Of a stretch of 41,203 nucleotides of DNA, positions 6,713 to 9,485 are shown piece by piece. Under the pieces are notes generated by a model. The model had not been told where the DNA came from and did not search any database. It saw nothing but the letters and a program-made list of their open reading frames with translations. The stretch is taken from NCBI GenBank assembly GCA_943324505.2, contig CALPLW020000004.1, positions 1 through 41,203 of the forward strand, read 5' to 3'. A program made the translations under genes and the position numbers. Position 1 is the stretch's first letter; each line of letters opens with the position of its first letter. The DNA comes from Comamonas sp. lk (lineage in GTDB: Bacteria; Pseudomonadota; Gammaproteobacteria; Burkholderiales; Burkholderiaceae_C).

Positions 6713-7819
6713 TCAGCCGGCCCGACGCGCCTTGACAGCCTCGGACAAGACCGACAGCACCTGCAATGAGTCGTCCCAACCCAGGCAGGCATCAGTGATG
6801 CTTTGGCCGTAGGCCAGACCAGCCGCGTTGTCTTGGCCCGGCGTGAATTTTTGCGCCCCGGCTTGCAGGTGGCTTTCCACCATGACGCCAAAAACGCTGC
6901 GCGAGCCAGCCGCCAGCTGGCCGGCGATGTCACGGGCCACATCGACTTGTTTCTGATGCTGCTTGCTGCTGTTGGCGTGGCTGCAGTCCACCATCAGCGT
7001 GGGCGGTAATTGGGCTTTCTGCAAATCCTGGCAGGCAGCGGCTACGCTGGCGGCATCGTAATTTGGCGCCTTGCCGCCGCGCAGAATAACGTGGCAATCC
7101 CGGTTGCCATGGGTTTGCACAATCGCCACTTGGCCGTTTTTGTGCACCGACAAAAAGTGGTGGCCCCCAGCGGCGGCCTGGATGGCGTCGGTGGCGATTT
7201 TGATGTTGCCATCGGTGCCGTTTTTGAATCCGATCGGCGCCGACAGGCCGGAAGCCAGCTCGCGGTGCACCTGGCTCTCGGTGGTGCGGGCGCCAATCGC
7301 GCCCCAAGAGATCAAGTCACCCAGGTATTGAGGCGAGATCACGTCAAGGAACTCACTGCCAGCCGGTAGTCCAAGCCGGTTGATGTCAATCAGCAACTGT
7401 CGCGCGATACGCAGGCCCTCATCGATGCGAAAGGTTTCATCCAGATAGGGGTCGTTGATCAGGCCTTTCCAGCCCACCGTCGTCCGCGGCTTCTCAAAAT
7501 AGACCCGCATCACGATCTCCAGCGTATCGGCATACTGATGGCGCTGGGCCAGCAGGCGGCGGGCGTACTCCATGGCAGCCGCCGGGTCGTGGATGGAGCA
7601 GGGACCAATGACCACCAGCAGTCGGTCGTCGGTACCGGCCAGGATGTCGTGGATACGGTGGCGGGTGCTGCTGATCAGGGACTCGATGGCCGTGCCATGA
7701 ATCGGAAAAAAGCGGATCAGGTGTTCTGGGGGCGGCAGCACGGTGATGTCCTTGATGCGTTGGTCGTCGGTCTGGCCGGTACGGTCGGTCGGGTGGGTGA
7801 CGGTGGCTTCGGGCTTCAT
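6713..7819 (-). CDS. aroG: 3-deoxy-7-phosphoheptulonate (DAHP) synthase, class I
   Basis: VVIGPCSIHDPAAAMEYA, RVYFEKPRTTVGWKGLINDP, GARTTESQVHRELASGLS, VDCSHANSSK. Confidence 0.97.
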   Translation of the reverse strand: MKPEATVTHPTDRTGQTDDQRIKDITVLPPPEHLIRFFPIHGTAIESLISSTRHRIHDILAGTDDRLLVVIGPCSIHDPAAAMEYARRLLAQRHQYADTLEIVMRVYFEKPRTTVGWKGLINDPYLDETFRIDEGLRIARQLLIDINRLGLPAGSEFLDVISPQYLGDLISWGAIGARTTESQVHRELASGLSAPIGFKNGTDGNIKIATDAIQAAAGGHHFLSVHKNGQVAIVQTHGNRDCHVILRGGKAPNYDAASVAAACQDLQKAQLPPTLMVDCSHANSSKQHQKQVDVARDIAGQLAAGSRSVFGVMVESHLQAGAQKFTPGQDNAAGLAYGQSITDACLGWDDSLQVLSVLSEAVKARRAG

Positions 7820-7860
7820 GGCGGACTCCTTATTCGATCAATGGGCAAAAGAAAAATACA

Positions 7861-7890
7861 TAAAAAAACCGCCGGGGGTGCCGGCGGTTT
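7861..7890 (-). terminator. Attenuator (rho-independent) terminator in the aroG leader
   Basis: Minus strand reads AAACCGCCGGC-ACC-CCCGGCGGTTTTTTTA: GC-rich stem plus a run of T. It lies between the leader-peptide stop and the aroG ATG. Confidence 0.88.
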
Positions 7891-7922
7891 CTGGAAGATC
7901 GGGACGTTTGGGTCAGGGACGT

Positions 7923-7991
7923 TCAGAACTCTCTACCGCCGGGGGCGTTGGAGAACCAAAAGTAGCTAAAGTAAAACGACGCGAATTTCAT
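7923..7991 (-). CDS. Putative aromatic-amino-acid leader peptide MKFASFYFSYFWFSNAPGGREF
   Basis: 22-codon ORF on the minus strand with FYFSYFWF (Phe/Tyr/Trp) run, ending upstream of the terminator before aroG. Below the ORF-track length cutoff. Confidence 0.82.
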   Translation of the reverse strand: MKFASFYFSYFWFSNAPGGREF

Positions 7992-8024
7992 GCGAACAAA
8001 TGTAGCACAGTGGCTGGCACAGCC

Positions 8025-9485
8025 TCAGGCCGTACCGCCAACGGTCAGGCCGTCAATGCGCAGGGTGGGTTGACCCACACCGACCGGCACGCTCTGCCCT
8101 TCCTTGCCGCAGGTGCCAACCCCACTGTCAAGCTTCATGTCGTTGCCGATCATGGACACGCGCTTGAGGCACTCGGGGCCGCTGCCAACCAGGGTGGCGC
8201 CTTTGACCGGGTACTGGATCTTGCCGTTTTCGACCCAATAAGCCTCACTGGCTGAAAACACAAATTTGCCCGAGGTAATGTCGACCTGGCCACCGCCAAA
8301 GTTGGTCGCATACAAGCCTTTTTTGATACTGGCCACGATCTCTTCGGGCGCCTTGTCGCCGGCCAGCATGTAGGTATTGGTCATGCGCGGCATGGGCACA
8401 TGGGCATAGCTCTCGCGCCGGCCATTGCCGGTGGGTGCCACGCCCATCAACCGGGCATTCATGCTGTCCTGAATGTAGCCCTTGAGGATGCCGTCCTCAA
8501 TCAGCACATTGCGCTGGCTGGCGTTGCCTTCATCGTCCACATTGAGCGAGCCGCGCCGGTCGGCCAGGGTACCGTCGTCCAGTACCGTGACGCCCTTGGC
8601 CGCCACGCGCTGGCCGATGCGGCCACTGAAGGCGCTGGAGCCCTTGCGGTTGAAATCGCCTTCCAGCCCATGGCCTATGGCCTCGTGCAGCAGGATGCCT
8701 GGCCATCCCGGGCCAAGAACCACGGTCATTTCACCCGCTGGCGCCGGCCGGGCCACCAGGTTGGTCAGGGCCGCCTGTACCGCTTCATCAACATAGCGGC
8801 CAATGCAGGCGTCGTCAAAATAAGCCAGGCCAAAACGGCCTCCGCCACCGGCTGAGCCCATCTCGCGACGGCCTTTTTGCTCGGCAATGACCGTGACCGA
8901 CAGGCGCACCAGCGGGCGCACGTCAGCGGCCAGCGTGCCATCGGCGCGGGCCACCAGCACCACGTCGTACTCGCTGGCCAGGCCAGCCATCACCTGAACA
9001 ACCCGCGGGTCTTTACTGCGCGCCAGCTGCTCCACGCGCTCAAGCAAACCGACCTTGGCCGTACTGTCCAGCGTGGCGATGGGGTCCAGATCACGGTACA
9101 GCGAGCGGGCCTCGGCGATGCGGCGTTTGCCGGCCTTGACCCGGGCACCCTGCGCTTGGGCGGCGATTGAACGCACCGTGCGTGCGGCGTCCAACAAAGA
9201 CGCCTCGGAAATATCATCCGAGTAGGCAAAAGCGGTTTTTTCACCGCTGACGGCTCTTACCCCAACACCTTGGTCGATGCTGAAGGACCCAGTCTTGACA
9301 ATGCCCTCTTCCAGGCTCCAGCCCTCGCTGCGGGTGTACTGAAAATACAGGTCGGCCTCGTCGACCCGGTGCGCCTTGATCTCGGCCAGAGCGCGTAGCA
9401 GGTGGGATTCGTCCAGGCCGAAGGGCGTGAGCAGCAGGGACTTGGCAATAGCCAAGCGTTCAAGGGTGGGTTCGCGTGAAATCAT
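8025..9485 (-). CDS. tldD: Metalloprotease TldD
   Basis: LLHEAIGHGLEGDFNRKGSSAFSGRIGQRVA (HExxxH-containing TldD motif) and GGGQVDITSGKFVFSASEAYW. Confidence 0.96.
   Translation of the reverse strand: MISREPTLERLAIAKSLLLTPFGLDESHLLRALAEIKAHRVDEADLYFQYTRSEGWSLEEGIVKTGSFSIDQGVGVRAVSGEKTAFAYSDDISEASLLDAARTVRSIAAQAQGARVKAGKRRIAEARSLYRDLDPIATLDSTAKVGLLERVEQLARSKDPRVVQVMAGLASEYDVVLVARADGTLAADVRPLVRLSVTVIAEQKGRREMGSAGGGGRFGLAYFDDACIGRYVDEAVQAALTNLVARPAPAGEMTVVLGPGWPGILLHEAIGHGLEGDFNRKGSSAFSGRIGQRVAAKGVTVLDDGTLADRRGSLNVDDEGNASQRNVLIEDGILKGYIQDSMNARLMGVAPTGNGRRESYAHVPMPRMTNTYMLAGDKAPEEIVASIKKGLYATNFGGGQVDITSGKFVFSASEAYWVENGKIQYPVKGATLVGSGPECLKRVSMIGNDMKLDSGVGTCGKEGQSVPVGVGQPTLRIDGLTVGGTA

Follow-up and report, generated by a model that had tools for sequence, protein, structure and literature searches.

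On the minus strand of the window, the 41,203-nucleotide stretch of DNA analyzed here, the spacer between tldD and aroG holds a short ORF rich in aromatic codons, followed by an intrinsic terminator in front of aroG. The aroG product scored 537 bits against the DAHP synthase family TIGR00034 (cut-off, 173; NCBIfam), and the product of tldD (8025-9485, minus), the next upstream gene on the same strand, which ends 33 nt 5′ of the leader, scored 677 bits against the TldD family (cut-off, 513; NCBIfam). The window genome encodes a second DAHP synthase, about 53-55% identical, whose gene lacks both leader and terminator; only a fragment of trpE, at a contig edge, was matched in this genome. DAHP synthase (aroG) is the first enzyme and the committed step of aromatic amino acid synthesis. 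The features of the locus are as follows.

6713-7819, minus strand: aroG, type I DAHP synthase of 368 aa, the putatively regulated gene (TIGR00034, 537.5 bits)
7826-7831, minus strand: Shine-Dalgarno sequence of aroG, AAGGAG, read from the sequence
7892-7862, minus strand: terminator AGAAACCGCCGGCACCCCCGGCGGTTTTTTT, with its stem at 7892-7864 and its U run at 7868-7862 (terminator scan and fold)
7867-7875, minus strand: region 4, CCGGCGGUU, 3′ arm of the terminator (3:4 covariation and scan)
7881-7889, minus strand: region 3, AACCGCCGG, 5′ arm of the terminator (fold and covariation)
7923-7991, minus strand: leader ORF of 22 codons, MKFASFYFSYFWFSNAPGGREF, with candidate control codons 6-13, FYFSYFWF (ORF reading and homologous leaders)
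7929-7947, minus strand: region 2, CGCCCCCGGCGGUAGAGAG, comprising a GGCGG core and GAGAG (GGCGG kept across leaders)
7935-7942, minus strand: copy CCGGCGGU, partner of the terminator 5′ arm in the putative antiterminator 2:3 (fold and covariation)
7951-7955, minus strand: region 1, UUCUC, within codons 13-14 (pairs with the GAGAG of region 2 in the minimum-energy fold)
7999-8007, minus strand: predicted extended -10 promoter element, TGC-TACATT, whose hexamer ends 7 nt before the leader ATG

Three structural claims of an earlier note on this DNA were borne out by our reading: the 22-codon aromatic ORF, which runs from 7991 to 7923; the terminator some 35 nt behind it, the distance from the leader stop codon to the CCGCC of the 5′ arm being 35 nt; and the duplication of the terminator 3′ arm within the leader, where codons 17-19 (CCC GGC GGT) form a copy with 8 nt complementary to the 5′ arm. 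Between the end of the terminator and the aroG ATG (7819) lie 42 nt. A third helix, 1:2, which the earlier note had missed, was found here, with an inner part (7944-7947 with 7937-7940) and an outer part (7951-7955 with 7929-7933); it would complete a trp/pheA-type set, with weaker support than the other helices. Counted from the A of the leader ATG as 1, helix 3:4 joins 103-111 with 117-125, helix 2:3 joins 50-57 with 104-111, and helix 1:2 joins 37-41 with 59-63 and 45-48 with 52-55. The 130-nt leader RNA folded at -43.6 kcal/mol (z, -4.5), and the fold without regions 1 and 4, corresponding to the 2:3 state, reached -22.2 kcal/mol (z, -3.0). An end-product codon run, an intrinsic terminator, and an antiterminator sharing an arm with that terminator, three marks of an attenuator, were found in silico.

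The leader was the sole ORF of at most 40 codons in the window with at least six aromatics in nine residues, and no such aromatic mini-ORF appeared in 25 dinucleotide-preserving shuffles of the window. Comparison loci came partly from named genomes, through a protein search, and partly from relatives of the window genome; of the 111 aroG-bearing loci, about 80 carry a homologous leader. Across 592 kb of these loci, 84 aromatic mini-ORFs were found, of which 81 were aroG leaders (78 flagged by script; L043, L048, and L105 on inspection), and a chance ORF was ruled out by the shuffles together with this conservation. When 14 close relatives were compared over codons 6-13, single changes were synonymous in 115 cases and non-synonymous in 76, with 11% synonymous expected if random; these are pairwise counts, hence the events are not independent, and the changes fit translation of the leader ORF. 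Phenylalanine and tyrosine codons were present in nearly all leaders and one tryptophan codon in most, with tryptophan absent from 8 of the 10 Oxalobacteraceae-type leaders. The sensing of total aromatic aminoacyl-tRNA, an idea of the earlier note, should therefore be viewed with caution, the more so given the Phe-only response of a Phe-Tyr-Phe leader in Corynebacterium glutamicum (reviewed in PMC11802643).

The alternative pairings were also retained among the relatives. In 68 aligned leaders, with column shuffles and slid helices as controls, 97.2% of cells were paired in helix 3:4, 87.3% in helix 2:3, and 81.9% in helix 1:2, with 24, 18, and 11 two-sided changes, respectively, against 5.8, 8.1, and 4.6 in the shuffles. 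The slid controls gave lower percentages paired for all three helices; some slid versions of helix 1:2 had equally many two-sided changes, and helix 2:3 had no more pairs with two-sided changes than the shuffles, 424 of 500 of which reached its count. The helix cores are almost invariant, so the covariation support rests on a few flanking pairs. Collectively, covariation strongly backs the terminator 3:4, moderately backs the antiterminator 2:3, and lends modest backing to helix 1:2. Both partners change between families (CCGGCGG/CCGCCGG versus CTGGCGG/CCGCCAG), and in a swap test, own partners scored above cross-family partners for 2:3 (20.7 versus 18.1) and 3:4 (22.5 versus 18.8); for 1:2 the test was clear only in Oxalobacteraceae (14.4 versus 9.3), the Burkholderia-type leaders being not above cross-family. 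A candidate extension of the antiterminator, pairing the GAGAG of region 2 with the pyrimidine tract 5′ of region 3, was unconvincing (own, 10.5; cross-family, 9.8) and was rejected.

The tail of the leader bears directly on whether the peptide or the RNA is constrained. The tail of 76 of the 79 leaders in the main set contains the GGCGG of region 2 (12% expected). This GGCGG occupies codon phase 0 in 41 leaders and phase 2 in another 34, and is translated as GG or xA; its retention in two codon phases points to a constraint on the RNA and not on the peptide. A nascent-chain arrest of the TnaC/SecM type, in which the peptide would sense a free aromatic amino acid or a general block of translation instead of tRNA supply, might be suggested by the dense aromatic run and by the similarity of the leader peptide within the window's genus. 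Arrest peptides, however, retain specific residues, whereas the aromatics, in both order and identity, and the peptide tail (SVPGG, RPLADREG, NSNPKAVE) differ widely among the leaders, and the tail is constrained by RNA pairing, which makes arrest very unlikely.

Leader-bearing loci were found in Comamonadaceae, Burkholderiaceae, Oxalobacteraceae, a Bordetella-like genome, and Xanthomonas/Dyella, with MSAKFYFYFFWYLRPLADREG (Burkholderia), MTCFFFTGYFYFSNSNPKAVE (Rugamonas), and MNANRSFYFWYYGFPMPLAEEGVRSP (Xanthomonas) as examples of leaders before aroG. Polynucleobacter, two Cupriavidus loci, the sampled Rhodocyclaceae-type loci, and Citrobacter showed neither leader nor terminator, and the no-leader loci that were checked also lacked the terminator, except for a few divergent leaders. 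This joint occurrence is relevant to the view that the hairpin is a plain intrinsic terminator of the upstream tldD and the aromatic ORF incidental. The adjoining tldD on the same strand in the window and a tldD-like gene in 62 of the 79 leader loci would agree with that view, but the fetched flank of the other 17 contains no tldD, and both leader and terminator are missing from Polynucleobacter and several others in which tldD is present. Moreover, an incidental ORF would not retain aromatic codons across families, and a plain tldD terminator would need no matching GGCGG inside the ORF. A tldD terminator alone was ruled out because leader and terminator occur together, also without tldD, and this explanation is extremely improbable.

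Seven divergent loci with a leader or a related terminator (L024, L043, L048, L079, L099, L100, and L105) were left out of the 79-member set. The L024 leader, MRTTVRYHFWHFHIQHLTGAGVANA, has histidines among its aromatics and keeps the terminator. L099, a close relative, has TGTGCTACATT and an imperfect terminator, with MFWVPVPVAVLGCPWFPWFPWFPP as its only aromatic ORF, and its attenuator may be broken. In L079, from a genome labelled Devosia (an alphaproteobacterium), aroG is accompanied by the aromatic ORF MNLRAAYSYWYFSTGSRWQPKGAV and a CCGCC...GGCGG terminator, a possible case of transfer or of binning error. The AroG proteins of L047, L049, and L051, from genomes labelled Planctomycetota, Verrucomicrobiia, and Gemmataceae, are 67-69% identical to that of the window and have no leader; either binning error or gene transfer could account for them.

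The hexamer of the predicted extended -10 element ends 7 nt before the leader ATG, which places the predicted transcription start at the ATG or within 1-2 nt of it; a canonical -35/-10 pair was sought upstream of the leader in the window and was not found. In 51 of 53 Comamonadaceae-type loci (shuffles, 0.4%), an element of the form TGNTAnnnT, in most cases TGC-TACATT, stops 6-8 nt short of the leader ATG, and transcripts from loci of this type should therefore begin 0-2 nt from the ATG. None of the 84 leaders has a four-base Shine-Dalgarno sequence before its start, and such a sequence lies near the candidate aroG start in 75 of 83 aroG loci. Because the extended -10 element lies so close to the ATG and the leader lacks a Shine-Dalgarno sequence, the leader ORF is probably leaderless in Comamonadaceae-type loci. 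In the Burkholderia- and Oxalobacteraceae-type loci, TATAA- or TATAGT-like boxes were seen by eye 28-45 nt upstream; these leaders seem to have 5′ untranslated regions of some 20-40 nt, suggesting that the leaderless form is not universal.

A transcript starting at the leader ATG is known for the trpL attenuator of Sinorhizobium meliloti and is only predicted for the aroG leader; the S. meliloti system differs in being Trp-specific and in controlling trpE(G), and its terminated RNA (rnTrpL) and peptide (peTrpL) act in trans in addition to attenuation (PMC7298713). The transcript predicted at our locus, a short leaderless mRNA ending in a stable hairpin, resembles rnTrpL (PMC7298713), and a terminated RNA of about 130 nt, or its peptide, could be imagined to act mainly in trans; the element is, however, tied in cis to aroG at every locus examined, which leaves a main role in trans hardly credible.

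To relate these structures to translation, a ribosome was represented at 76 loci by masking all RNA as far as 16 nt beyond the start of the P-site codon, in transcripts that still lacked region 4; such masks are simple, and the folding is at equilibrium, kinetics being ignored. The mean 2:3 probability was about 1.0 for the best aromatic stall and 0.90 for a ribosome on the last aromatic codon. With the ribosome at the stop codon, the mean 2:3 probability before region 4 was 0.37, as the stop codon of some loci lies too far downstream for full masking of region 2, and the mean 3:4 probability at full length was 0.97, the same as in the free full-length RNA. In the window, the 2:3 probability was 1.00 at the best stall and at the last aromatic codon and 0.00 with the ribosome at the stop, and the 3:4 probability was 1.00 both in the free full-length RNA and with the ribosome at the stop. 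Before region 4 is made, 2:3 was preferred to 1:2 in the free window RNA (0.97), which suggests that default termination would depend on the order of folding.

These sequence-based results indicate that the element is very probably a ribosome-mediated transcription attenuator of aroG. We infer stalling, readthrough, the transcription start site, and the tRNAs that count, which would be combined as follows. Transcription would begin at or just 5′ of the leader ATG, and the ribosome would load on this 5′ end, which would be leaderless or nearly so. A shortage of charged Phe-, Tyr-, or Trp-tRNA would stall the ribosome within FYFSYFWF, where it would cover region 1 and leave region 2 free to pair with region 3; this antiterminator, formed before region 4 is made, would let the polymerase read into aroG. 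If the aromatic tRNAs were charged, the ribosome would reach the stop and cover region 2, helix 3:4 with its U run would form, and transcription would end about 40 nt 5′ of aroG. In an untranslated leader, 1:2 could form first, with 3:4 terminating as the default state. The earlier note had proposed such pheA/trpE-type logic and had looked to close relatives for the aromatic codon run and the alternate pairing. The run is kept in the relatives, as is the choice between 2:3 and 3:4 with their shared arm (pairing, swap test, and GGCGG core), and the logic is supported by this conservation, the alternative pairing, and the ribosome-masked folds.

None of the Rfam families, including the Trp leader RF00513 and other amino-acid leaders, matched the window at the gathering score, the best lax match being sroD (19.9 bits against 50), and a known Rfam element was thereby ruled out. 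In our search of the literature, mainly open-access, no paper was found that describes an aroG leader from Burkholderiales or Xanthomonas; the putative aroG attenuator is absent from Rfam release 15 and from the open papers searched. Aromatic leaders such as pheL and trpL are classical cases of attenuation. By described features, the closest precedents appear to be E. coli pheL/trpL and Corynebacterium glutamicum aroR-aroF. A paper on regulation in proteobacteria lists trpE and pheA as attenuated and places DAHP synthase genes under TyrR and TrpR (PMC5343134). Like E. coli pheL-pheA and trpL-trpE, the window locus has a leader peptide with candidate control codons, mutually exclusive 2:3 and 3:4 helices with a putative 1:2 helix, and a U-run terminator before the gene (PMC5343134). 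Unlike these, the window leader would control the common first step (DAHP synthase) and not an end branch, aroG leaders hold Phe, Tyr, and usually Trp codons with no Shine-Dalgarno sequence before the ATG, and region 2 of the window lies inside the leader ORF, just 3′ of the control codons. In C. glutamicum, as far as a review describes the system, a DAHP synthase gene likewise stands behind an aromatic leader peptide with ribosome stalling, but the system is actinobacterial with a short FYF run, and its Phe-Tyr-Phe leader responded to Phe and not to Tyr (Neshat et al. 2014; reviewed in PMC11802643). The uORFC-13-1 motif of Acholeplasma aroF also combines a predicted uORF with Phe codon(s) and a terminator before a DAHP synthase gene but is described with a different structure and only from Acholeplasma and environmental sequences (PMC8632094). 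An attenuator has also been predicted before a proteobacterial DAHP synthase gene in Vibrio (aroA-Ialpha-Y>tyrA), but this is a database prediction for an operon with tyrA in another lineage (PMC1173090).

In a broader scenario, which we regard as tentative and rather unlikely as a whole, one leaderless attenuator would read all three aromatic aminoacyl-tRNAs and gate entry into the shikimate pathway, would be ancestral in Burkholderiales and shared with relatives of Xanthomonas, and would take the place that the repressors TyrR and TrpR hold in E. coli, while its terminated RNA may also act in trans. For a large bacterial group, the aroG leader is a predicted regulator of the committed step of aromatic synthesis, with predicted sensing via tRNA charging and not via a DNA-binding repressor. 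How a single leader weighs three amino acids could be cleanly tested on it, as could attenuation on a leaderless mRNA outside alphaproteobacteria. A new Rfam family could be seeded from the alignment of the covariance model built in this analysis (130 positions). The model gave one significant match in the window genome and, with fast filters that make the hit counts lower bounds, matches in at least 76 of 300 sampled Burkholderiales genomes, 224 of which have AroG by protein search, and in at least 7 of 369 genomes of the class. With the model, 35 loci were fetched, two of which were the window itself, and every one had aroG downstream and an aromatic leader. In three genomes of one genus (G407:C1, G535:C1, and G633:C1), two tandem aroG genes lie directly behind a single leader match, and one attenuator may serve both copies.
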